A stretch of 64,000 nt of DNA from Xestospongia bergquistia (Eukaryota > Porifera > Demospongiae > Haplosclerida > Petrosiidae). The notes beneath the pieces were generated by a model. That model saw only the letters and a program-made list of their open reading frames with translations. It did no database searches and was not told where the DNA came from. Positions 11,101 through 61,103 of the stretch are shown in pieces (position 1 is the stretch's first letter; the number at the start of each line of letters is the position of its first letter). The DNA is taken from contig OZ014419.1 in the NCBI GenBank assembly GCA_963965975.1, forward strand, positions 1,736,001 through 1,800,000, in the 5' to 3' direction. The translations under genes were made by a program, and so were the position numbers.

Positions 11101-11925
11101 ACTTTAAAGTTGATAGCTGTCATCAATGGTACTTATAATGAAACATTAATGTTTGTTTCTTTACAGGATCAAGAAATCCCAGCAATAGAGTCTGCTATAA
11201 AGGAACATGCTCAACTCTCCTGTAGTTGTTCATTAGTTAACGCTTCTTTTAAAGAAAGCACTCAATCATGTTCTAATAATATTCTGTCTTTCTCTGCTAC
11301 TTTCATCTATGCTGCTAGTAATGGTTTATTCACAGCATCAAAGATGGTCGACCAACTGGAGAGAGATTTCAGTCAAGGAAAGAATACAACTTTAACAGTT
11401 AATGGATAACAGTGACAGACAATACAAGTCAAAAAGAGAACAATAATGGAATTCTGACAGGACTCTTCTTTGCTGGATTCATTAGTGCTACAATACTTTG
11501 TGGAATAATCATTATTATAGTCATGTTAGTATACATAGGCTACCATAATTATAAAAATTACTTCAATTTTCTACAGTGCTTTGCTGTTAAAATCAAGAAA
11601 GGCTAGAGTGGCAGAGACTACAGTGTCACAAGATGAAGTACTATATACCACTAAGCCATCAGCTGTCACAGTATCTAGTAGTAAACCATCTAATCAGAAA
11701 CAACCAAACAAATCATCAGGTAATACTATTGATAATCAATCCTCCAGACCTAGATCAACAAGTACAGCTCAAACAAAGCCCAGAGTAGCTACTACTACTC
11801 AACAAGTGAAATCAGACAAAACTATGGCTACTGCTGCAAGTGTGAAACCTAAAGAAAAAGAACACACTTATGAAATCCTAACATCATCACTTGATGTTGA
11901 CACTTACGAAGAACTTTACAGATAA
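5150..11925 (+). CDS. Receptor R1: 7 SRCR + 4 Ig-like domains, membrane exon broken (predicted secreted)
   Basis: Exons by phase and splice sites: 5150-5170, 5368-5419, 6474-6659, 6703-6876, 6928-7092, 7145-7330, 7387-7557, 7608-7769, 7813-7980, 8032-8196, 8239-8415, 8463-8630, 8689-8856, 8904-9095, 9144-9308, 9359-9526, 9571-9861, 9912-10256, 10305-10718, 10770-11039, 11086 onward, 11167-11524, 11577-11925. Exon 1 encodes MRDSSVK and exon 2 encodes LKNLILMLLISQLYC, together a signal peptide. Fourteen exons form seven SRCR domains (pattern GRVEIC, W, CRQLGY); four exons form Ig-like domains. Two lesions hit the anchor. About 9 bp, including the GTAAGT donor, are missing after 11129, so reading through stops at 11136-11138 after about 1286 residues. 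A 7-bp deletion also puts a stop at 11407-11409, ahead of the transmembrane helix. The tail exon still encodes an ITAM ([16 protein letters not shown]) that the frame can no longer reach. It is either a soluble receptor or a young pseudogene. Confidence 0.8.
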
Positions 11926-23400: not shown

Positions 23401-25280
23401 TAATGATCAACAGATTGTTAATATCTTCAACAAGTACAGTATTACTAATGATAATAAGACACTGATTATTACTAATATTACTAAAGAAGATGTAGGAGAA
23501 TACTCTGTTAAATTTGATGGTCTCAGACTGTATCAGTACAATAGAGTCTGTGAACAGAAAGTACTACAACTTCTAAGACACTATCCAGTATTGAGTCCTA
23601 CTGTGTTCTATGTCTCTGTTGAGGGTAAGCTAGGACACTTTATATAACTAGTGTAAACTTTTTATTAATTTAGGAGATGGATATGATATTACAAAGTCAT
23701 CTAGATGTTCAAATTCTACTTATCCTGTCACTGGTTTTAATAAGACAACTCAGAAAGCTATAGTCATTAGTTTTCTTAATGAGGACAAACAATACCGTAA
23801 TGAGGCACAAGTATTTTGGTGTCATGATGGTAGTAGGGTTACCTCAGGAATGACTAGTAGTCACTTGGGGTTATATTCTGAACCATATTATAGTTTGAGT
23901 ATTAACAATCCTACTGTGTTACACTCTGGATATTATGAGTCTCAACTAACTGTTACATCTTCAACAGTACTCTCATCATTGAGTTGTAGTAACTCATATC
24001 AAAACTTCCTGACTTCTTCCAGTTATCTTAATTTATCAACTATTGTCATAGATTCTATAGTACAAAGACTGGAATACTATGGTTAGTACTAATACAACTA
24101 AATATAACATTATGATTAAATCTTTATTATAGAAACTCCATCAGTAAATTTGACAACAGATAAAACCAGTTTTAACTCAACATCTAATGCTGAGTTAGTG
24201 TGTTCAGTTAGTGGTGGTTATCCTCTATATTATAACATTACATTGATGAAGAATGGACTGTCTATTGCTAACACTATTGGATCATCTCAATTAGTCTATA
24301 ATACTGAGGAAGATCAAACTGGTAGTAAATATGGAGTGTATAAGTGTGTAGTCAATAATACAGTCATTGAGATTGAATCAAGTGTATATCTGAAGGAAGA
24401 AGGTTAGATATTCATAATAATAATTATTTTCATATTTTGTTTTTAGCTAAATTATCTCTGTATTTACAAGCTGACAGTTGTCGTCAATGGAATGTAAGAG
24501 ATTATAATGAAAGATTAGTCTCAAGTTTTCATCACCTTAGGATCTTCAAATTCCAGCAATAGAGTTTGCTATAAAGGAACATGCTCAAATATCATGTAGT
24601 TGTTCATTAGTTAATAGTTCCTTTAATAACAGTAGTCAATCATGTTCTAATAACAATCTGACTTTCTCCTCTACTTTCACTTATTCTTCTAGTAATGGTC
24701 TCTTTATAGCATCAGAGATAGTTGAACAACTAGAGAAAGATTTCAGTCTAGGAAGGAATGCAACTTTAATAGTTAATGGACAACAATTAATAGCACTAAC
24801 CAGTACCAATTTAAATCAAAAGGAGAGCAATAATAATGGAATTTTGACAGGACTGTTCTTTGCTGGATTCACTAGTGCTACAATACTATGTGTAATAATC
24901 ATTATTATAATCATGTAAGTATATATTATCTTATAAATTAATAACAATTTTATGTATTGTATAGTGTTTTGTTGTTGAAATCAAGAAAAGTTAGACCAAC
25001 AAAGACTTCAAAACCACAAAAGGAAGTACAATACAATGCAGAGTCTATGTCTGCTTCTATCTATAGTAATGAGGTACTAAATGATACACCACTTTATAGT
25101 ATACCACGTTACCACCGTATTGGGCAAACATTAAGTAAAGGTCTCAAGGCAGTCAATAATACTCAACAAACAAAACCAAATGTTACTACAGTTACACTCT
25201 CAAATGAGAAATTCAAAGGAAATGAAACAATGATGTCAACATATGAAGACATGGATCATTATGAAGGACTGTATAATTAA
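17888..25280 (+). CDS. Receptor R2: intact 7 SRCR + 4 Ig-like transmembrane receptor with divergent tail
   Basis: Exons: 17888-17908, 18421-18472, 19812-20000, 20042-20212, 20264-20428, 20488-20673, 20718-20885, 20936-21106, 21151-21318, 21370-21534, 21579-21752, 21808-21975, 22027-22194, 22249-22434, 22508-22672, 22723-22890, 22939-23229, 23280-23624, 23674-24081, 24133-24402, 24447-24493, 24541-24914, 24965-25280. They sum to 4536 nt, 1511 residues, with no break. Layout: signal 1-24 (MWHSSVK then [15 protein letters not shown]), SRCR1-7 about 25-828, Ig-like 829-1266, Cys-rich segment, TM about 1383-1406, tail 1407-1511. SRCR3 keeps the cysteine (GTVCSRGF) that R1, R3, R4 and R5 lost. Ig2 lacks the usual cysteine pair. 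The tail has no ITAM; it holds YEDM (a YxxM, PI3-kinase SH2-type motif), YEGL and scattered tyrosines. A transposon-like insert sits in intron 2. SRCR/Ig receptors bind ligands at the cell surface; the ligand is unknown. Confidence 0.87.
18937..19153. mobile_element. Short non-autonomous transposon in intron 2 of R2
   Basis: An insert of about 217 bp is absent from the same intron of R1 and R4. Its ends are inverted (CCTCGTACCC and GGGTATGAGG), and TGAAGGTATGCAG is present on both sides (18924-18936 and 19154-19166) but only once in the empty sites, so it is a target-site duplication of about 13 bp. The interior has a hairpin (CCAGGCTTTC/GAAAGCCTGG) and the CpG-rich GCGCATGCGCG, unlike the surroundings. 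No coding capacity is seen. Confidence 0.75.
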
Positions 25281-32000: not shown

Positions 32001-34669
32001 AGACAAGCTGGATATCAGACATTAAGTGAGGAATTCACTAGTTAATGTACAGTAATGAAGTGACCATTACCTTCTGTATGTACAGGAGCTATTCCAATGT
32101 ATGATGCATTCTTTGGAAGAGGAGTTGGACCAGTTCATATGACATCTGTTGGTTGTTATGGCAATGAGAACAGTCTAACTGAGTGCTCTTATATGAGTGG
32201 TATAGGAGTAGATAATTGTTATCATGGTAAAGATGTAGGAGTCATCTGTTTAGATAAATAGAAGGAAAAATCATTATATATATTTTCTAAAACGATAGAT
32301 TCTGCTGTTTTCTATAATGTCACTATATCATTGAGTTCAAACCAGTCCCCTGTAGCTATTGGTAGTAATGTGACACTTTATTGTAATGTCTCTCCAAGTC
32401 CCCCTATTAACACTACTTATCAATGGAGGACCACTGTATCAGGAGTTATATTATCACAACCTATTTCTACCTATTCAAATGTAACATTGACTGTCCCTAC
32501 AGGACATACACAACAAGGGAATTACTACTGTATTGTTAAATATAATGGAGCAACATTAGGGAGAGGACATACTCAAATTACTGTTAAAGGTAATAAGTCA
32601 TAGCTATTTTCATTATAACTATCATTAATTCTTGAATAGATCTTCTTAATCCTGTTGGGAATAAAGTAAAATCTACTATTATTGGGTCTAATGTCAACCT
32701 CACAGTTAGTATAACTGATAGTTTTATTACTGACTATCTTCGTGAACTCAACTGGTATCATAATGATCAACAGATTGTTAATACCTTCAACAAGTACAGT
32801 ATTACTAATGATAATAAGACACTGATTATTACTAATATTACTAAAGAAGATGTAGGAGAATACTCTGTTAAATTTGACGGTCTCAGACTGTATCACTACA
32901 ATAGAGACTGTGAACAGAAAGTCCTGCAACTTCTAAGACACTATCCAGTATTGAGTCCTACTGTGTTCTATGTCTCTATTGATGGTAAGATAGGACACTT
33001 TGTATTATTAGCATAAACTTGTTATTAATTTAGGAGATAGAGATGATATTATAAAGTCATCTGCTGCTAGATGTTCAACTCCTACTTATCCTGTCACTGG
33101 TTTTAATAAGACAACTCAGAAAACTGTAGTCATTAGTTTTCTTAATGAAGACAAACAATACAGTAATGAGGCACAAGTAATTTGGTATCATGATGGTAGT
33201 AGGGTTACCTCAGGAATGACTAGTAGTCACTTGGGATTAAATTCTAAACCATATTATAGTTTGAGTATTAACAATCCTACTGTGTTACACTCTGGATATT
33301 ATGAGTCTCAACTAACTGTTACATCTTCAACAGTACTGTCATCATTGAGTTGTAGTAACTCATATCAAGAATTCCTGACTTCTTCTAATTATCTTAATTT
33401 ATCAACTATTGTCATAGATTCTATAGTACAAAGACTGGAATACTATGGTTAGTACTAATATAACTAAATATAACATTATGATTAAATTTTTATTATAGAA
33501 ACTCCATCAGTAAATTTGACAACAGATAAAATCAGTTTTAACTCAACATCTAATGCTGAGTTAGTGTGTTCAGTTAGTGGTGGTTATCCTCTATATTATA
33601 ACATTACATTGATAAAGAATGGACTATCTATTGCTAACAATATTGGATCATCTCAATTAGTCTATAATACCGAGGAAGATCAAACTGGTAGTAAATATGG
33701 AGTGTATAAGTGTATAGTCAATAATACAGTCATTGAGATTGAATCAAGTGTATATCTAAAGGAAGAAGGTTAGATATTTTCATACTGTAATATATAATGA
33801 TATCTAATTTTAGCTGTCCTAACATTAAACTTTAAAGTTGATAGCTGTCATCAATGGAATGTAAGTTATTTATAATGAAGCATTAATGTTTGTTTCTTTA
33901 CAGGATCACCACATCCCAGCAATAGAGTCTGCTATAAAGGAACATGCTCAACTCTCCTGTAGTTGTTCATTAGTTAACGCTTCTTTTAAAGAAAGCACTC
34001 AATCATGTTCTAATAATATTCTGTCTTTCTCTGCTACTTTCATCTATGCTGCTAGTAATGGTTTATTCACAGCATCAAAGATAGTCAACAAACTGGAGAG
34101 AGATTTCAGTCAAGGAAGGAATACAACTTTAACAGTTAATGGACAACAACTAACAGTGACAGACAATATAAGTCAAAAAGAGAACAATAATGGAATTCTG
34201 ACAGGACTCTTCTTTGCTGGATTCATTAGTGCTACAATACTTTGTGGAATAATCATTATTATAGTCATGTTAGTATACATAGGCTATCATAATTATAAAA
34301 ATTACTTCAATTTTCTACAGTCCTTTGCTGTTAAAATCAAGAAAGGGTAGAATGGCAGAGACTACAGTGTCACAAGATGAAGTACGATATACCACTAAGC
34401 CATCAGCTGTCACTGTAGCTAGTAGTAAACCATCTAATCAGAAACAACCAAACAAAACATCAGGTAATACTATTTATAATCAATCATCCAGACCTAGATC
34501 AACAAGTACAGCTCAAACAAAGCCCAGAGTAGCTACTACTACTCAACAGGTGAAATCAGACAAAACTATGGCTACTGCTGCAAGTGTGAAACCTAAAGAA
34601 AAAGAACACACTTATCAAACCCTAACATCATCACTTGATGTTGACACTTACGAAGAACTTTACAGATAA
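29026..34669 (+). CDS. Receptor R3: 7 SRCR + 4 Ig-like + ITAM tail, splice-donor mutation after SRCR7
   Basis: Exons: 29026-29071, 29134-29316, 29387-29554, 29606-29770, 29830-30012, 30069-30239, 30290-30451, 30512-30679, 30731-30895, 30953-31135, 31183-31350, 31406-31573, 31621-31815, 31861-32025, 32086-32253, 32299-32589, 32640-32984, 33034-33447, 33499-33768, 33814-33860, 33904-34268, 34321-34669. The start differs from the siblings: one exon encodes the whole signal peptide, [16 protein letters not shown]. Spliced as listed, the protein would be 1512 residues. However, the donor at 32254 reads AT instead of GT. Reading on gives Asp-Lys-stop and a secreted protein of about 821 residues holding only SRCR1-7. 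A GTAAAG at 32227 is in the same phase and could rescue splicing in frame with loss of nine residues including the last SRCR7 cysteine. The tail ends in a consensus [20 protein letters not shown], preceded by Glu at -3. No other break is seen. Confidence 0.82.
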
Positions 34670-41156: not shown

Positions 41157-41999
41157 CTCATATATAAACACATACAAAAGGGCAAAACTATATCAGAAAC
41201 TACTTCTAGCAGTTATAGCATGCTAGGTGGAAAAAATCAATGAATGTCCAATTTATGTACGACATCTTTTTATACAACTATTGATATCTTATTTTAATAA
41301 TCTTAATTGGTCTTATTTTCAAGGTAGTCACATTGTCTTATATGTATGCACTCATCATTAAACTTTGTGACCTCTCTATTTCTCTACATCAGGTACTTTT
41401 AATGTCAACTGTGAACATGGATCTTTAAGGTTAGTAAACGGAGGTTCTGCTAATGAAGGAAGACTGGAGATTTGTATAAATTTTGTTTGGGGTACAATAT
41501 GTGATAGCGTTTACTCTTCTGACACTAATGATGCTAAAGTGGCTTGTAGACAACTAGGATATGAAGTGGATGGAGGACAAAGTGAGAAGAAAATATTATT
41601 ACTAAATTTTAATACTTAATAGATGTGACAAATGCATATTATGGACATGGTAGCGGACCAATATGGTTGAAGTACCCCCAGTGTACTGGTATTGAGAGTA
41701 ACTTGTTGGAATGTCCAAAAAGATATGATATTGGCAATCCTTATGGTTGCTCTCACCCTGAAGATGTTAGTATAGTTTGTCCAGGTATAGATACTATACT
41801 ACTAATCACATAATTATTATAATTTTATATTCTAGTTAACTCCTGTACACAAGGTGATGTTCGTCTCACTGATGGACTGGTACCAAATGAAGGAACAGTT
41901 GAAGTGTGTTATAATAGAGCTTGGAATTCTGTGTGTGATAGTGGTTGGGGCTATCAAGAAGCATTTGTAGTCTGTAGACAGTTAGGTCTTCCAGCAACA

Positions 42000-42037
<38 letters not shown>

Positions 42038-45000
42038 GTCACTTAATGTTTGGTATATATAGGTGCACAGTCTTTATCATCTAACTACTTTGGTACTGGA
42101 CATGGAATACCAACACTAAATTACTGGAGATGCATTGGAAATGAAACAAATTTATTGGACTGCCTTTATTCCAGTGATTCAACTTGTTTCTCAAGTTCTG
42201 GTGTATATCATAGAGCAAGTATTAGATGTACAGGAATGATAGCGTCTGGTAATACTTATTTCATGATTAAAAATTAATATTCATTATTATGTAACTTTCA
42301 CACATATAGACAGCTGTGGTACAAGTAGTAATATGCGTCTTGTTGGACCTAATGATGTTGAGGGCAGAGTAGAGTACTGTAGTAATGGAGTATGGGGGAC
42401 TGTGTCCTACCTTGGGTTTGATGTAAATGATGGAAAAGTTGTTTGCAGGAAATTGGGTTATCAGGAACCACGTAATATGAATACAAATTTTGCAACTTAG
42501 TTTATTAGTTATTCTATACAGGTGTACTGATATTTAGAAATTATGGACAAGGATCAGGTCCTGTTCTTTTTATATACCTTCACTGTAATGGAAATGAGTT
42601 TACTCCGGATGACTGTAGTTTTGACTTAGATCCTTATTGGTATGATCACTCATATGATGTTGCAGTCAGGTGTATGGAAAAGGGTATTGATAGAATATAT
42701 ACATGGTTTGCAAATTTAACCATTCCTTAGTTCCCACTGATTGTACTCATGGTAGCATTAGATTAGTAAATGGTTCCACTCCACATGAAGGAAGAGTAGA
42801 AATATGTCTCAATGGAGAATGGGGAACTGTCTGTGGTACCTATTGGGACAGACGAGATGCTCAAGTTGTCTGTAGACAACTGGGATATGTCCCAACATGT
42901 AAACTAGTATTCATTAGTATATACATGATATTAACTGTGGATATTATAGGGGCATCATTTTATAGATCATCACAATTTGGAGATGGAGATTTACAACAAC
43001 TTATTTGGAATTTCCAATGTAGTGGTTCAGAGACATCTCTACTGAATTGTAGTTATCAATATGATCCTAGTTCATCCTGTTATTATGGTCGTACTGCTGG
43101 AGTCAAATGTTATAGTAAGATAACATTAATATTATTATACAAATGGTAATAATGATTTCAATATCTCTCAGACTCTACATACTGTACTGAAGGAGATATC
43201 AGACTAATTGGAGGTAATAGTACAAATGAAGGAGATATACAAATATGTGAAAGTGGAGTATGGGGATTTATATGTGATTATGACTGGCATTGGTTTTGGT
43301 ATTGGTATTACTCAGCAAACATGATTGTTACATGTAGACAACTGGGATATCACAGTGATAATAACTGTAAGTTTAATTTCCATCATAACATTTTAACTAT
43401 TCTTTATTTGAAGGGATTGCTACTAGTTGGTATTCATTCTTTGGAGGAAGTCAAGACACTGCACCAATAGTATGGGATGGATTTAACTGTGTAGGCAATG
43501 AAACATCTTTAACTCAGTGTTCAAAGTATAACTATGGATATTATAGTACATGTACACAGAGTGCAGTAATCTATTGTGCAGGTCAAACTTGCTACTGCAT
43601 TTAACACTAGTTACAATACTTTCTTTATATCTACAGATATAGTCAACTGTACTAATTGGTCAGTTCATTTAGTGGATGGAGAAAGTGATAATGAAGGCAA
43701 AGTTGAAATATGTATAGATGGAATATGGATGACAACAGAGGCAAATTATTGGTCTTATTCTCATGCTAAAATTGTATGTAGACAACTTGGATATTATGAC
43801 AAATGTAAAATAAATGTTTTATATGATAGTGAATACTTTAGCATACTGTAGGGTCAGTAGCTATCACAGATATAATTTGGAAAACTAAAAGTAAAAGAGT
43901 TGGCTATCAATATTTTGGTTGTACTGGAAATGAAACATCACTGAGTAATTGTTCTTATTATTATGATCCATGGTATTATAAAGGGATAGCTTACTGGTAT
44001 GACAAAATCAGAGCAGGTGTAGAATGTCAGATGAAATTACAATCAGGTATGATATCAGTACAACACTATGGATTATCTTCATTACTTTACAGAGTCATGT
44101 ACAAATGTTGGAGATATTCGTTTGTCTGGTGGTAGTCAATTAAATGAGGGTAGAGTTGAAATATGTCTTGATGGATACTGGGGTAGTGTATGTAGTAATG
44201 GATGGGATGAACAAGATGCTCTAGTAACATGTAGACAAGCTGGATATCAGACATTAAGTGAGGAATTCACTAGTCAATAAAGTGACCATTACCTTCTATA
44301 TATACAGGAGCTATTCCAATGTATGATGCATTCTTTGGAAGAGGAGTTGGACCAGTTCATATGACATCTGTTAGTTGTCATGGCAATGAGAACAGTCTAA
44401 CTGACTGCTCTTATATGAGTGGTATAGGAGTAGATAATTGTTATCATGGTAAAGATGTAGGAGTCATCTGTTTAGGTAGAAAGTAAGAGAGTCATTATAA
44501 TATATTTCCTCTAAAATAATAGATACCGCTAATTTCTATAATGTCACTATATCATTAAGTTCAAATGGGTCCTCTGTAATTATTGGTAGTAATGTGACAC
44601 TTCATTGTAATGTCTCTCCAAGTCCTCCTATTAACACTACTTATCAATGGAGAACTACTGTGTCAGGAGTTACATTATCACAACCTATTTCTACTTATCC
44701 AAATGTGACATTGACTGTTCCTACAGGACATACACAACAAGGGAATTACTACTGTATTGTTAAATATAATGGAACAACATTAGGAAGAGGACATACTCAA
44801 ATTTCTGTAAAAGGTAATTATAACATAGCCATTTTCTTTATAACTATTATTAATTAGATCTTCTTAATCCTGTTGGCAATAAAGTAAAATCTACTATTAT
44901 TGGGTCTAATGTCAACCTCACAGTTGATATAACTGATAGTTTTATTACTGACTATCTTCGTGAACTCAACTGGTATCATAATGATCAACAGATTGTTAAT

Positions 45001-46889
45001 ACTTTCAACAAGTACAGTATTACTAATGACAATAAGACACTGATTATTACTAATATTACTAAAGAAGATGTAGGAGAATACTCTGTTAAATATGATGGTC
45101 TAAGACTGTATCACTACAATAGAGACTGTGAACAGAAAGTCCTACAACTTCTAAGAAACTATCCAGTATTGAGTCCTACTGTGTTCTATGTCTCTATTGA
45201 TGGTAAGATAGGACACTTTGTATTATTAGCATAAACCTGTTATTAATTTAGGAGATAGAGATGATATTATAAAGTCATCTGCTGCTAGATGTTCAACTCC
45301 TACTTATCCTGTCACTGGTTTTAATAAGACAACTCAGAAAACTGTAGTCATTAGTTTTCTTAATGAAGACAAACAATACAGTAATGAGGCACAAGTAATT
45401 TGGTATCATGATGGTAGTAGGGTTACCTCAGGAATGACCAGTAGTCACTTGGGATTATATTCTAAACCATATTATAGTTTGAATATTAACAATCCTACTG
45501 TGTTACACTCTGGATATTATGAGTCTCAACTAACTGTTACATCTTCAACAGTACTGTCATTATTGAGTTGTAGTAACTCATATCAAGACTTCCTGACTAC
45601 TTACAATTATCTTAATTTTTCAACTATTGTCATAGATTCTATAGTACAAAGACTGGAATACTATGGTTAGTACTAATATAACTAAATATAACATTATGAT
45701 TAAATGTTTATTATAGAAACTCCATCAGTAAATTTGACAACAGATAAAATCAGTTTTAACTCAACAACTAATGCTGAGTTAGTGTGTTCAGTTAGTGGTG
45801 GTTATCCTCTATATTATAACATTACATTAATGAAGAATGGACTGTCTATTGCTAACATTATTGGATCATCTCAATTAGTCTATAATACTGAGAAAGATCA
45901 AACTGGTAGTAAATATGGAGTGTATAAGTGTGTAGTCAATAATACAGTCATTGAGATTGTATCAAGTGTATATCTAAAGGAAGAAGGTTAAATATTTTAC
46001 ATATTGTAATATAATAATGATATCTAATTTTAGCTGTCCTAACACTAAACTTTAAAGTTGATAGCTGTCGTCAATGGAATGTAAGTTATTTATAATGAGG
46101 CATTAATGTTTGTTTCTTTACAGGATCACCACATCCCAGCAATAGAGTCTGCTATAAAGGAACATGCTCAACTCTCCTGTAGTTGTTCATTAGTTAACGC
46201 TTCTTTTAAAGAAAGCACTCAATCATGTTCTAATAATATTCTGTCTTTCTCTGCTACTTTCATCTACGCTGCTAGTAATGGTTTATTCACAGCATCAAAG
46301 ATAGTCAAACAACTGGAGAGAGATTTCAGTCAAGGAAGGAATACAGCTTTAACAGTTAATGGCCAACAACTAACAGTGACAGACAATATAAGTCAAAAAG
46401 AGAACAATAATGGAATTCTGACAGGACTCTTCTTTGCTGGATTCATTAGTGCTACAATACTTTGTGGAATAATCATTATTATAGTCATGTTAGTATACAT
46501 AGGCTATCATAATTATAAAATTTACTTCAATTTTCTACAGTGCTATGCTGTTAAAATCAAGAAAGGGTAGAATGGCAGAAACTACAGTGTCACAAGATGA
46601 AGTACGATATACCACTAAGCCATCAGCCGTCACTGTAGCTAGTAGTAAACAGTCTAATCAGAAACAACCAAACAAAACATCAGGTAATACTAGTCATAAT
46701 CAATCATCCAGACCTAGATCAACAAGTACAGCTCAAACAAAGCCCAGAGTAGCTACTACTACTCAACAAGTGAAATCAGACAAAACTATGGCTACTGCTG
46801 CAAGTGTGAATCCTAAAGAAAAAGAACACACTTATGAAACCCTAACATCATCACCTGATGTTGACACTTACGAAGAACTTTACAGATAA
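40479..46889 (+). CDS. Receptor R4: intact 7 SRCR + 4 Ig-like transmembrane receptor with ITAM tail
   Basis: Exons: 40479-40499, 40575-40626, 41393-41581, 41623-41784, 41836-42000, 42063-42248, 42310-42471, 42522-42683, 42731-42898, 42950-43114, 43172-43366, 43414-43581, 43637-43804, 43852-44046, 44093-44257, 44308-44475, 44523-44813, 44858-45202, 45252-45665, 45717-45986, 46034-46080, 46124-46488, 46541-46889. They sum to 4572 nt, 1523 residues, all splice sites GT-AG. Layout: signal 1-24, SRCR1-7 about 25-830, Ig-like 831-1270, Cys-rich segment 1287 on, TM ([18 protein letters not shown] and following isoleucines) about 1382-1408, tail 1409-1523. The tail ends in [16 protein letters not shown] with Tyr1506 and Tyr1518 and Glu at -3: an exact ITAM. 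Such motifs, once phosphorylated by Src kinases, recruit tandem-SH2 kinases of the Syk type. SRCR5 has an enlarged aromatic loop ([11 protein letters not shown]). This is the only copy here both intact and ITAM-bearing. Confidence 0.88.
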
Positions 46890-48639: not shown

Positions 48640-49692
48640 AATAGTATCAATGGCGGAGTTTTGACAGGATTGTTCTTCATTGGTTTTGTTACTGCTATCC
48701 TAGAAAAGTAGAGGAGAAAGATAGAATATTATTAGAACATGATTAATTATAAAAAGTAACATAGTCACTTGGGGTTATATTCTAAACTTTAAAGTTGATA
48801 GCTGTCATCAATGGAATGTAAGTTACTTATAATGAAACATTAATGTTTGTTTCTTTACAGGATCAACACATTCCAGCAATAGAGTCTGCTATAAAGGAAC
48901 ATGCTCAACTCTCCTGTAGTTGTTCATTAGTTAATGCTTCCTTTAAAGAAAGCACTCAATCATGTTCTAATAATATTCTATCTTTCTCCTCTACTTTTAT
49001 CTATGCTGCTAGTAATGGTCTTCTTACATCATCAGAGATAGTAGAACAAATGGAAAGAGATTTCAGTCCAGGAAGGAACACAACTCTAACAGTTAATGGA
49101 CAACAATTAACAGCAATCAATGAAATGAATGAATCTTGTAGTAATAGTATCAATGGCAGAGTTTTGACAGGATTGTTCTTCATTGGTTTTGTTACTGCTA
49201 TCCTGTGTGTAATGATTGTTATGACATTTATGTGAGTTTAAACAATGTCAATATTATTGATAGATTTACTGAGTTAGTATGTTAGTATGTTAGTACCTTT
49301 TCATTCTATGTAACCTTATTGCATCAGATTGACATTATTGGAGCTTTAATTAGTGAGAGTTGAGGATACATATAGTGGTATTAATTTAAGTGTCTTTAGC
49401 TTGAATTGTATGTCTTACAATTGTATATTCTTCCTTGTATTAGGTAACATTATTATTGGATATTATCATGTCTTAAACCTCAAGTGTTTAATTTTTAATT
49501 TGCATATCATTTCATCACTTCTATAGTATATTTATTTTAAAATTAAGAAAGACAAAGGGCACTCCTACACAAAAAGAGGTTGTACATTATGATACTAAGG
49601 CAGGATCTATGTCTTTGTTATCTAAAGAAACTTCACCGAGCTTACCTTCAAGAATAACTATGAGACAATCAACATCCATTTGGAATTGTTAA
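48640..49692 (+). pseudogene. Rearranged receptor fragment: juxtamembrane, TM and non-ITAM tail
   Basis: A first piece of transmembrane exon (48640-48705) breaks into an inverted segment at about 48709-48763. That segment is the reverse complement of the sequence that precedes and begins the fragment at 13651-13704. Next comes a scrap of the third Ig exon (AGTCACTTGGGGTTATATTC) fused to the linker exon, which ends at a GTAAGT donor. A complete membrane exon follows at 48861-49231 ([28 protein letters not shown]), then an open tail exon at 49527-49692 (LKLRKTKGTPTQKEVVHYD, ends SIWNC). The 3' part is readable but has no signal peptide or ligand domains. It is best seen as a scrambled stump. 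Confidence 0.72.
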
Positions 49693-50049: not shown

Positions 50050-51568
50050 TTTTATATAGGGCCAGTAGTGACATCTTGTAGTGTTAGTACTGATAGTAGT
50101 CTGACAGCTACTCCTAGTGACTGATAGGCATACCATAGTCCAATCAGGAGACCCTGCATACTATGTGGACCCTAAGCTAAAATAAACTCCAGTACAGTCA
50201 AGGACACTAAAAAGTAACTTAATCCACTGATGAACTGTGATACAATGAGAAGAAGGATTTCATATCTTTGTAAACCATAAGGATCTGGTGAAATGCTGAC
50301 TAATGTTTCATTAGAGAAACATACTACATCACTATAAGTATAACTGATATACATCAGTGCTGTGTAAACAGTAGTCAGAGTAAATACTACAATTATCATT
50401 AACAAACCAATTCCCATTTTCTTCAACATGTTAGGTAGATGATGATGTAAACAAGGTCGTAGTAGACACATGTACACTGGAACACCAATTATGATAACAT
50501 AGTACATGAAATAATGTGATGATCCAATTTCTAGTACTGAAAACCTTCCAGTTCCATTTCTATAATAATAGTTTGAATATATCTCCCCTGGTTGTCTATT
50601 AGAACCCTGAAGTAATAATAATCCAAATAATGTTAACATTAACAAGAAAATACGTCCAAAACTTTTAACATCGTCGACTTGTTCAGTAGAAAATGGTCCT
50701 CCATATCTCTCTTTACTTAGATCTAGTCTGGTGGGAGGAAGTTCTCCATAAGTAAAGGCACTACATCTCACTGGTTGTTTGTGTTGTGTTGTGCTGAAAA
50801 GCTCAATACTTTTATGATCTGTTTAACTGGGTTAGTGTGACCTACTGGCTCAGTAAATAAATGACAACAACAACAGCAGATTATAACAACAATCAATAAT
50901 GAACAGGTAAGTGCAATAACAGACAATAATATCCAAATCCATGCTATGTATTTGTAGTATTCAAAGCTTAAAAATGATATTATAGAGGAAAGTGCATACT
51001 GAACAGCATACAATGTCCAGAAGTACCAGTGAACGAATTTACTGAGTTCTTCATTACTAGCAAATTGTAACTGATCTGTTCCAAACTGAATAGCATTAGC
51101 TTCAAATAAACCAAGTCCAAAATGATAGATTATGAATCCAGGAACAACTGGTATTAAAGCAGATTTGCCATCACGATATAGTATAACAGTTCCAGTGATA
51201 GAAGACAATGTAGCTACAGTTAGTCCAATCACTGCTATTACAGAGCCAATCATCATAACTTTATATCGAGTGAGTAGTGTTTCAGCTAGTAGGCCAGCCA
51301 CAGGATAAATAAGAAGAGTCATGATTTTAGCACTTAACAAAGCTATAAAAACGTCCCTCGTGTCCAAATCCAACTGTTTAAAACTGGCACTATACTCTAT
51401 TATACTAAGAAGTAGAAGATAATTGTCCAGACAATGTAGTAAGGTAGACCACAATAGCACTAAGAGAGCTCCTTTTAAGGGAACACAACAAATGGTACAA
51501 TATTTTGACAAATATTTTGTTGAAGTACTTTTCTTGCCATTCCTTATAAGTGGGATTGTCTCGCCCAT
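50050..51568 (-). pseudogene. POT-family transporter, frameshifted and interrupted
   Basis: This is the sister of the transporter at 300-1625, with the same N-terminal two thirds (MGETIPLIRNGKK start, FGTDQL and FVHWYFW motifs). About 14 extra bases near 50771-50790 shift the frame after KVLSFSAQ. The second part (RCSAFTYGELPP onward) is open to LEFILA and then meets TAG at 50172-50174. Past the stop the same frame still encodes SMQGLLIGLWYAYQSLG, typical of the last helices of this family, so the stop is a real lesion. It keeps the C-terminal region that its sister lost by deletion. Neither copy in the window is a full-length transporter. Confidence 0.8.
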
Positions 51569-51886
51569 TTTACTGTCTAGTCAGCTTCCAATAATGTTAA
51601 TAATTAACTTAATTACTCATAGTACAATCTGTACAGTATATACATTACATAGAATGTGCATATATAAATTGTGAAATACGTTTATTATTATTAAAATAGT
51701 ACCACTGCTGGTCTTGTTTAAAATCTGTTAATAAGTATATAGATATTGCTATATAATATGTTATAACTCTTCTACTCAACTACTTTCTCGTAATTATATA
51801 ATAGCATTAAACTACTGAAATCATATAATATTGAATGTACTCAGATCAGCATAAACAGTTATCATAGATATTATAAATCTACATAG

Positions 51887-58200: not shown

Positions 58201-61103
58201 GATACTGGTATGATTATATCAGAGCAGGAGTGGAATGTCAGATGAAATCACAGTCAGGTATGACAATAAATATAACTAATATACATTATCTTCATTATTT
58301 TACAGAGTCATGTACAAATGTTGGAGCTATTCGTTTGCCTGGTGGTAGTCAGCTAAATGAGGGTAGAGTTGAGATATGTCTTGATGGATTCTGGGGTAGT
58401 GTGTGTAGTAATGGATGGGATGAACAAGATGCTCTAGTAACATGTAGACAAGCTGGATATCAGACATTAAGTGAGGAATTCACTAGTTAATGAGGTGACC
58501 ATTACCTTCTATATATACAGGAGCTATTCCAATGTATGATGCATTCTTTGGAAGAGGAGTTGGACCAGTTCATATGACATCTGTTAGTTGTCATGGCAAT
58601 GAGAACAATCTAACTGAGTGCTCTTATATAAGTGGTATAGGAGTAGATAATTGTTATCATGGTAAAGATGTAGGAGTCATCTGTTTAGGTAAATAGAAGG
58701 AAAGTCATTATGTATATTCTCTAAAACAATAGATTCTGCTGCTTTCTATAATGTCACTATATCACTGAGCACAAACCAGTCCTCTGTAACTATTGGTAGT
58801 AATGTGACACTTCATTGTAATATATCTCCACGTCCTCCTATTAACACTACTTATCAATGGAGGACCACTGTGTCAGGAGTTACATTATTACAACCTATTT
58901 CTACTTATCCCAATGTGACATTGACTGTTCCTACAGGACATACACAACAAGGGAATTACTACTGTATTGTTAAATATAATGAAGCAACATTAGGGAAAGG
59001 ACAAACTCAAATTACTGTTAAAAGTAATTAGTCATAGCTATTTTCATTATAACTTTCATTAATTCTTGAATAGATCTTCTTAATCCTGTTGGCAATAAAG
59101 TAAAATCTACTATTATTGGGTCTAATGTCAGCCTCACAGTTGATATAACTGATAGTTTTATTACTGACTATCTTCGTGAACTCAACTGGTATCATAATGA
59201 TCAACAGATTGTTAGTACCTTCAACAAGTACAGTATTACTAATGATAATAAGACACTGATTATTATTAATATTACTAAAGAAGATGTAGGAGGATACTCT
59301 GTTAAATTTGATGGTCTCAGACTCTATCAGTACAATACAAACTGTGAACAGAAAGTCCTACAACTTCTAAGAAACTATCCAGTATTGAGTCCTACTGTGT
59401 TCTATGTCTCTATTGAGGGTAAATAGGACACTTTGTATAATTAGCATAAACTTGTTATTAATTTAGGAGATAGAGATGATATTATAAAGTCATCTGCTGC
59501 TAGATGTTCAACTTCTACATATCCTGTCACTGGTTTTAATAAGACAACCCAGAAAGCTGTAGTCATTAGTTTTCTTAATGAAGACAAACAATACAGTAAT
59601 GAGGCACAAGTAATTTGGTATCATGATGGTAGTAGGGTTACCTCAGGAATGACCAGTAGTCACTTGGAGTTATATTCTGAACCATATTATAGTTTGAGTA
59701 TTAACAATCCTACTGTGTTACACTCTGGATATTATGAGTCTCAACTAACTGTTACATCTTCAACAGTACTCTCATCATTGAGTTGTAGTAACTCATATCA
59801 AGACTTCCTGACTTCTTCCAATTATCTTAATTTAGCAGCTATTGTTATAGATTCTATAGTACAAAGACTGGAATACTATGGTTAGTAATAATACAACTAA
59901 ATATAACATTATGATTAAATGTTTATTATAGAAACTCCATCAGTAAATTTGACAACAGATAAAATCAGTTTTAACTCAACTTCTAATGCTGAGTTAGTGT
60001 GTTCAGTTAGTGGTGGTTATCCTCTATATTATAACATTACATTGATGAAGAATGGACTGTCTATTGATAACATTATTGGATCATCTCAATTAGTCTATAA
60101 TACTAAGGAAGATCAAACTGGTAGTAAATATGGAGTGTATAAGTGTATAGTCAATAATACAGTCATTGAGATTGTATCAAGTGTATATCTGAAGGAAGAA
60201 AGTTAGATATTTTACATATTGCAATATATAATGATATCTAATTTTAGCTGTCCTAATACTAAACTTTAAAGTTGATAGCTGTCATGAATGGAATGTAAGT
60301 TACTTATAATGAAACACTAATTTTTGTTTCTTTACAGGATCAAGAAATCCCAGCAATAGAGTCTGCTATAAAGGAACATGCTCAACTCTCCTGTAGTTGT
60401 TCATTAGTTAACGCTTCTTTTAAAGAAAGCACTCAATCATGTTCTAATAATATTCTGTCTTTCTCTGCTACTTTCATCTATGCTGCTAGTAATGGTTTAT
60501 TCACAGCATCAAAGATGGTCGACCAACTGGAGAGAGATTTCAGTCAAGGAAAGAATACAACTTTAACAGTTAATGGACAACAACTAACAGTGACAGACAA
60601 TACAAGTCAAAAAGAGAACAATAATGGAATTCTGACAGGACTCTTCTTTGCTGGATTCATTAGTGCTACAATACTTTGTGGAATAATCATTATTATAGTC
60701 ATGTTAGTATACATAGGCTATCATAATTATAAAAATTACTTCAATTTTCTACAGTGCTTTGCTGTTAAAATCAAGAAAGGCTAGAGTGGCAGAAACTACA
60801 GTGTCACAAGATGAAGTACAATATACCGCTAAGCCATCAGCCGTCACTGTATCTAGTAATAAACCATCTAATCAGAAACAACCAAACAAATCATCAGCTA
60901 ATACTATTCATAATCAATTATCCAGACCTAGATCAACAAGTACAGCTCAAACAAAGCCCAGAGTAGCTACTACTACTCAACAAGTGAAATCAGACAAAAC
61001 TATGGCTACTGCTGCAAGTGTGAAACCTAAAGAAAAAGAACACACTTATCAAACCCTAACATCATCACTTGATGTTGACACTTACGAAGAACTTTACAGA
61101 TAA
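55299..61103 (+). pseudogene. Receptor R5: SRCR/Ig/ITAM receptor copy with multiple lesions
   Basis: Close relative of R1. Exons: 55299-55319, 55517-55568, 55866-56039, 56091-56255, 56309-56494, 56551-56721, 56772-56934, 56978-57145, 57197-57361, 57404-57580, 57625-57792, 57851-58018, 58066-58257, 58306-58470, 58521-58688, 58733-59023, 59074-59418, 59467-59880, 59932-60201, 60248-60294, 60338-60702, 60755-61103. About 1 kb is deleted around 55830, removing the first-half exon of SRCR1; phase-1 symmetry keeps the frame. One extra A at 56834 in SRCR3 gives ATG-TAA and ends the frame at 56837-56839. The exon at 57625 joins as TAG, and its donor at 57793 is AT. The Ig, membrane and tail exons are clean, with an ITAM ([16 protein letters not shown]). 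Any protein would stop within SRCR3. Confidence 0.82.

Follow-up and report, generated by a model that had tools for sequence, protein, structure and literature searches.

The paired-tyrosine activation signal, or ITAM, is used by vertebrate immune receptors, and FcgammaRIIA is a single-chain vertebrate ITAM receptor whose ectodomain consists of Ig domains only. According to the accessible parts of the papers cited here, ITAM, hemITAM or ITIM tails also occur in the clustered recognition gene families Alr of Hydractinia and fuhc of Botryllus, and ITAM/ITIM signalling has been proposed as a common recognition logic from cnidarians to mammals (PMC12065747). The oyster protein CgIgIT2 is an Ig-domain receptor with a classic ITAM (PMC11999971), CD5 is an SRCR receptor with paired tail tyrosines in a pseudo-ITAM, YSQP-x8-YPAL (PMC5983667), and FCRLS is a single protein that carries SRCR as well as Ig-like domains (PMC7940838). 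For sponges, large gene expansions of the SRCR superfamily have been described in one species (PMC10855680), and Syk has been reported (PMC9601881, PMC9486129). As judged by term searches, 'ITAM' and 'tyrosine-based' are absent from the main text of the sponge SRCR paper (PMC10855680), and the accessible text of a sponge graft transcriptome paper (PMC5450542) contains none of SRCR, scavenger receptor, tyrosine, ITAM or immunoglobulin. No ITAM, whether on a sponge receptor or on a seven-SRCR/Ig receptor, appeared in the literature searched, most subscription journals and preprints lying outside its scope. Here we describe R4, a predicted receptor gene, probably from a sponge, in the window, that is, the whole stretch of 64,000 nucleotides analysed (C9:1736001-1800000), together with searches of the genome it belongs to (146,460,797 bases, 21 contigs).

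Structure of the R4 gene and its tail motif

R4 is predicted by splicing to consist of 21 exons at 41393-46889 on the + strand, which join into 1494 open codons and a stop; all 20 introns are GT-AG and measure 41-62 nt. Its features are as follows.

41393..44475, + strand: seven SRCR domains in 14 exons, two per domain (GT-AG exon chain; seven Pfam SRCR stretches)
44523-44813, 44858-45202, 45252-45665 and 45717-45986, + strand: four Ig-like exons
46034-46080 and 46124-46488, + strand: juxtamembrane exons, the end of which is an uncharged membrane helix
46489..46540, + strand: 52-nt intron, whose retention leaves the frame open and yields a short tail without the ITAM
46541..46889, + strand: cytoplasmic tail exon, 115 residues and a stop (exon chain)
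46824..46880, + strand: ITAM EHTYETL-x8-YEEL (strict-motif scan)

The preliminary description had proposed a seven-SRCR, four-Ig ectodomain. Pfam recovers all seven SRCR domains, whereas only two of the four Ig-like exons, the first and second, pass the Pfam Ig cut-offs; the fourth falls slightly under and the third is weak. After the juxtamembrane exons come one uncharged membrane helix, a basic stretch and the tail exon. Both junctions suggested earlier for this part of the gene, 46080/46124 and 46488/46541, are GT-AG and keep the frame, with introns at 46081-46123 (43 nt) and 46489-46540 (52 nt). Structure prediction gave a mean pLDDT of 39.6 for the juxtamembrane region. A signal-peptide exon was sought upstream of R4 and no convincing one was found there; the related copy R3 starts with a small signal-peptide exon, separated by 62 nt from the first of its SRCR exons, and the same signal-peptide coding sequence precedes R6. 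An Rfam scan of the whole window returned no match at the gathering threshold.

The R4 tail ends in a canonical ITAM with Glu at position -3 and a spacer of 8. It matches the strict form [DE]xxYxx[LI]x(6-8)Yxx[LI] and, in the predicted chain, lies in frame with the membrane segment and the ectodomain, which bears out the ITAM claimed for this tail. Shuffling the 113 residues of the R4 tail 200,000 times produced the strict motif on 7 occasions. A six-frame scan of a 124-kb region gave six strict matches, every one in a receptor tail of the array described below. Twenty Markov-simulated sequences of the same length gave a mean of 2.65 such matches (range 0-7), so that such a motif cannot be called rare in raw DNA, and we reject an argument from rarity at the DNA level (2.65 simulated against six real). 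The six matches are one inherited motif; it counts because it stands at the end of a real cytoplasmic tail and is retained in relatives. Read-through of the 52-nt intron is open in R0, R3, R4, R5 and P0011, and P0012-P0014 are not the same in this respect.

The array, its copies and their tails

The tandem array of receptor genes proposed in the preliminary description is confirmed by genome-wide searches: all seven matches to the tail exon (E <= 0.001) and all 24 matches to the juxtamembrane/membrane exon (E <= 0.01) lie on C9. A search for SRCR domains gave 163 matches from 150 scored of 4312 first-look candidates. This abundance of SRCR domains, together with small introns and arrayed genes, makes an early-branching animal, probably a demosponge, the likely source. 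R0, R5b, R6, R7, R8 and short-tailed copies lie outside the window. Within it, the following features accompany R4.

11860..11916, + strand: ITAM sequence of R1, whose frame is already broken ahead of the membrane segment (motif scan)
24965..25280, + strand: variant tail of R2, ending STYEDM-x2-YEGLYN, not an ITAM
34604..34660, + strand: ITAM EHTYQTL-x8-YEEL of R3, chain open (motif scan)
48861..49223 (within 48822-49235), + strand: R4b, a juxtamembrane/membrane exon paralogue with a short tail, no ITAM in raw frames
61038..61094, + strand: ITAM of R5, where one SRCR exon carries a 1-nt insertion and the first exon is not recognisable (motif scan)

A strict ITAM is present in six of the ten in-genome tails compared (R0, R1, R3, R4, R5 and R6). 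The other four are not strict: R7 reads YETM and then YEAM-x9-YEGL, R2 and R5b read YEDM-x2-YEGL, and R8 reads YKAM, YEDI and YQGL. R8 (locus L012, C9:1833780-1834300) is diverged, with ITIM-like SMYEDI and SHYQGL in its tail, and may be dead because its membrane frame has a stop before the expected donor. The short-tailed R4b and R-1, the latter a membrane-exon paralogue at C9:1718672 whose raw frames also hold no ITAM, were read as raw frames only and stand outside the ten-tail count. The window further holds two copies of a POT/PTR2-like transporter gene on the - strand, at 300-1637 and 50172-51580, the second split over two frames.

When the R4 exon borders were mapped onto eight other copies, R0, R6 and R5b showed no problem, and R2 differed only in tail length and had no stop. 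The chain of R3 is open, with a last SRCR exon that has no GT donor. R1 has lost the donor of its small juxtamembrane exon and carries a 7-nt deletion before the membrane helix, so that its frame breaks ahead of the membrane segment. In R5 a 1-nt insertion disrupts the latter half of SRCR3, and mapping from R4 found no recognisable first exon; in R7 a 7-nt problem was flagged. The motif earlier ascribed to R1, R3 and R5 is thus present in all three tail exons, but R1, with its broken frame, does not stand as a usable copy, and neither, probably, does R5, with its insertion and missing first exon. Given these lesions, we reject for R1, and doubt for R5, that all window copies carry a usable ITAM; the motifs of these two are probably not displayed. 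The lesions may be assembly errors, and that of R5 a sequencing or assembly slip.

Among R0, R2, R3, R4, R5b and R6, dN/dS was below 1 in 17 of the 19 exons scored, a set that leaves out the 47-nt exon and also the tail exon, the latter because of a stop within the R5b segment used. We make no claim of positive selection at S2a (dN/dS 1.58) or S4a (1.40), where there are fewer than two synonymous changes per pair. Pairwise ratios for the tail span 0.32-2.82 among seven copies and 0.54-0.74 against R7; on this codon comparison the tail exon is weakly constrained.

A protein search returned nine relatives. P0002-P0004 match R4, R1 and R0 of the array itself, P0009 matches R7, and P0008 and P0010 are R7-like. 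The preliminary description had looked to related tails for both YxxL units: P0005, P0006 and P0007, on other contigs, retain the two, but with spacers of 12, 9 and 9 rather than 8. Both tyrosines and the last leucine are invariant in a ten-row alignment that includes the rows of the array. Among the relatives found, the strict 6-8 spacer is not retained outside the array locus. Wide ITAM spacing is known, for example in FcgammaRIIA, and the longer spacers, although they count against a narrow ITAM reading, are consistent with wide ITAMs.

R5b (C9 ~1799900-1806900) shares most of its ectodomain with R4. Ten exons, from SRCR5 to Ig4, are 92-100% identical, as are eight of the nine introns between them at 94-100% (the other at 84%), whereas identity is 72% in the small juxtamembrane exon, 85% in the membrane exon and 60% in the tail. 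This pattern suggests a recent exchange between the two paralogues.

Kinases and phosphatases in the same genome

The SH2 search of the genome gave 83 matches, and translations were read at 30 of these loci. The preliminary description had made its reading hang on a Syk-type kinase in this organism, and one was found. The gene L044, on the minus strand of C5, contains two SH2 matches in the order N-SH2, linker, C-SH2 and kinase exons with HRDLAARN, DFG and EYYRAETAGRWPLKWYAPE. Its tandem SH2 part aligns with SYK over its length (E 3.1e-47), and SYK or ZAP-70 make up its 11 best solved-structure matches. L044 also aligns with the arginine of each phosphotyrosine pocket, at what we take to be the Syk positions. 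For the kinase piece the top match is a single EGFR-labelled entry with two matched stretches, and matches 2-25 of the best are SYK or ZAP-70 (2.7e-58). As predicted from these translations, L044 is a clear Syk/ZAP-70-type tandem-SH2 kinase.

Src kinases, for which the preliminary description had also proposed a search, are represented at C6:1620765-1698712 by an array of Src-like SH2-kinase genes, at least nine in number and mostly single open frames. SHP-like SH2-SH2 genes form a third group at C3:1264887-1284716, with six SH2 pairs, and in five of the six genes a phosphatase part was read in the same frame; further SHP-like relatives lie at C7:8319015-8319560 and C6:199640-200233. The Src and SHP labels come from reading translations and not from a profile search.

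Outside the SH2 families, a cluster of C1-peptidase exons lies about 210 kb upstream of the window on the same contig (C9:1502757-1523415), and the active site of another such peptidase, L070 (C9:3183978), reads CSCYAF. Silicatein is a sponge-specific marker with an active-site Ser; from the 76 C1-peptidase matches, seven short stretches were read, and they held no clear active-site Ser.

A candidate activating receptor and its place among known systems

On the basis of these results, we lean, with slightly better than even confidence, towards R4, R0 and R6, and probably R3, being single-chain activating cell-surface receptors that work through Src-type kinases and Syk. A ligand bound by the seven SRCR and about four Ig-like domains would cluster the receptor, whereupon both tyrosines of the tail would be phosphorylated by a Src-type kinase. 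Once YxxL-x8-YxxL carries both phosphates, the genome's own Syk-type kinase could dock there through its tandem SH2, and this docking would give an activating signal. What the sequence itself holds is an exon chain that stays open, the motif with its membrane segment, a Syk gene, and relatives that retain the YxxL pair; the Src-like and SHP-like genes and the low dN/dS of most exons also speak for this reading. Against it count the damage to R1 and R5, two of the six copies with an ITAM, the lack of a strict ITAM in R7, R2, R5b and R8, the longer spacers of outside relatives, the weak constraint on the tail, the six-frame chance rate and the failure to find an R4 signal peptide.

Its main rival, and a serious one, is a scavenger receptor engaged in the uptake of microbes or debris, in which both YxxL units would serve as endocytosis signals of the AP-2 type and their ITAM-like spacing would be incidental. 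SRCR scavenger receptors are known to use YxxM as an endocytic signal. In the diverged members of this family Leu is swapped for Met and the spacing varies (2, 8, 9, 12) while the Yxx-hydrophobic units stay, changes that an uptake signal would tolerate; Yxx[LIM] units occur in all ten in-genome tails compared. SH2 docking, on the other hand, prefers Glu after the tyrosine. Such a Glu is found in most copies, both units lie at the extreme end of the tail, and the spacer is exactly 8 in six copies, so that we regard endocytosis as possible but unlikely. Alternatively, the ITAM tail might go unused, the copies decaying, the tail exon being skipped or the 52-nt intron retained, with the motif a product of chance in an AT-rich array. 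The damage to R1 and R5, the open intron read-through in R0, R3, R4, R5 and P0011 and the raw six-frame rate of 2.65 per 124 kb would fit, but R0, R4 and R6 are intact, tail shuffles reach the motif in only 7 of 200,000 cases, 17 of the 19 scored exons show dN/dS values under 1 and outside relatives retain both YxxL units. We therefore consider an idle tail quite improbable.

The tail could also be inhibitory, its phosphorylated pair recruiting the SHP-like SH2-SH2-phosphatases that are expanded in this genome and that, counted by SH2 pairs, number six in the C3 array, with a further gene on C7. The tandem SH2 of SHP can indeed bind doubly phosphorylated tails. The ITIM [SIVL]xYxx[IVL], however, is absent from the six ITAM tails, where position -2 is His or Asp, and ITIM-like matches occur only in the possibly dead R8; an inhibitory role thus seems very unlikely.

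Under the activating reading, we infer expression, phosphorylation, Syk binding, the activating sign, a ligand and an immune or self-recognition role. R4 and R5b share the layout of vertebrate paired receptors, in that ectodomains which are almost the same are joined, within a single locus, to different tails. Comparison of the tails found no ITIM in R2 or R5b, and because the R5b tail has no ITIM match we do not file the array as paired activating and inhibitory receptors. More speculatively, and as an improbable extension, the locus might be a complex of paired receptors at the base of the animal tree, in which recombining SRCR/Ig ectodomains are combined with ITAM tails (for Syk) or with YEDM/YEGL, YxxM and short tails (for other SH2 proteins, including the expanded SHP set) into a sponge immune or self/non-self recognition system. 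If so, its signalling would be built on the same Src-Syk-SHP scheme as in NK and B cells of vertebrates.

As far as the accessible parts of these papers go, each described system differs from R4. Hydractinia Alr and Botryllus fuhc have other ectodomains and belong to other phyla, and there an allorecognition role is supported (PMC12065747). The molluscan CgIgIT2 has five Ig domains and no reported SRCR domain (PMC11999971). CD5 has no Leu or Ile at +3 of its first unit and no Ig domains, and it dampens T-cell signals (PMC5983667), and the mammalian FCRLS is secreted, with no membrane segment or ITAM tail (PMC7940838).

With a Syk encoded in the same genome, R4 is a candidate ITAM receptor of a probable sponge. 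The two make an ITAM-Syk route near the base of animals directly testable, and studies of immunity or allorecognition in sponges gain in the array a definite receptor locus to work on. Like FcgammaRIIA, R4 would combine a ligand-binding ectodomain, one membrane helix and an ITAM in one chain, with no adaptor needed; FcgammaRIIA carries Ig domains only, as against seven SRCR and Ig-like domains in R4, and the likeness drawn here is one of layout.
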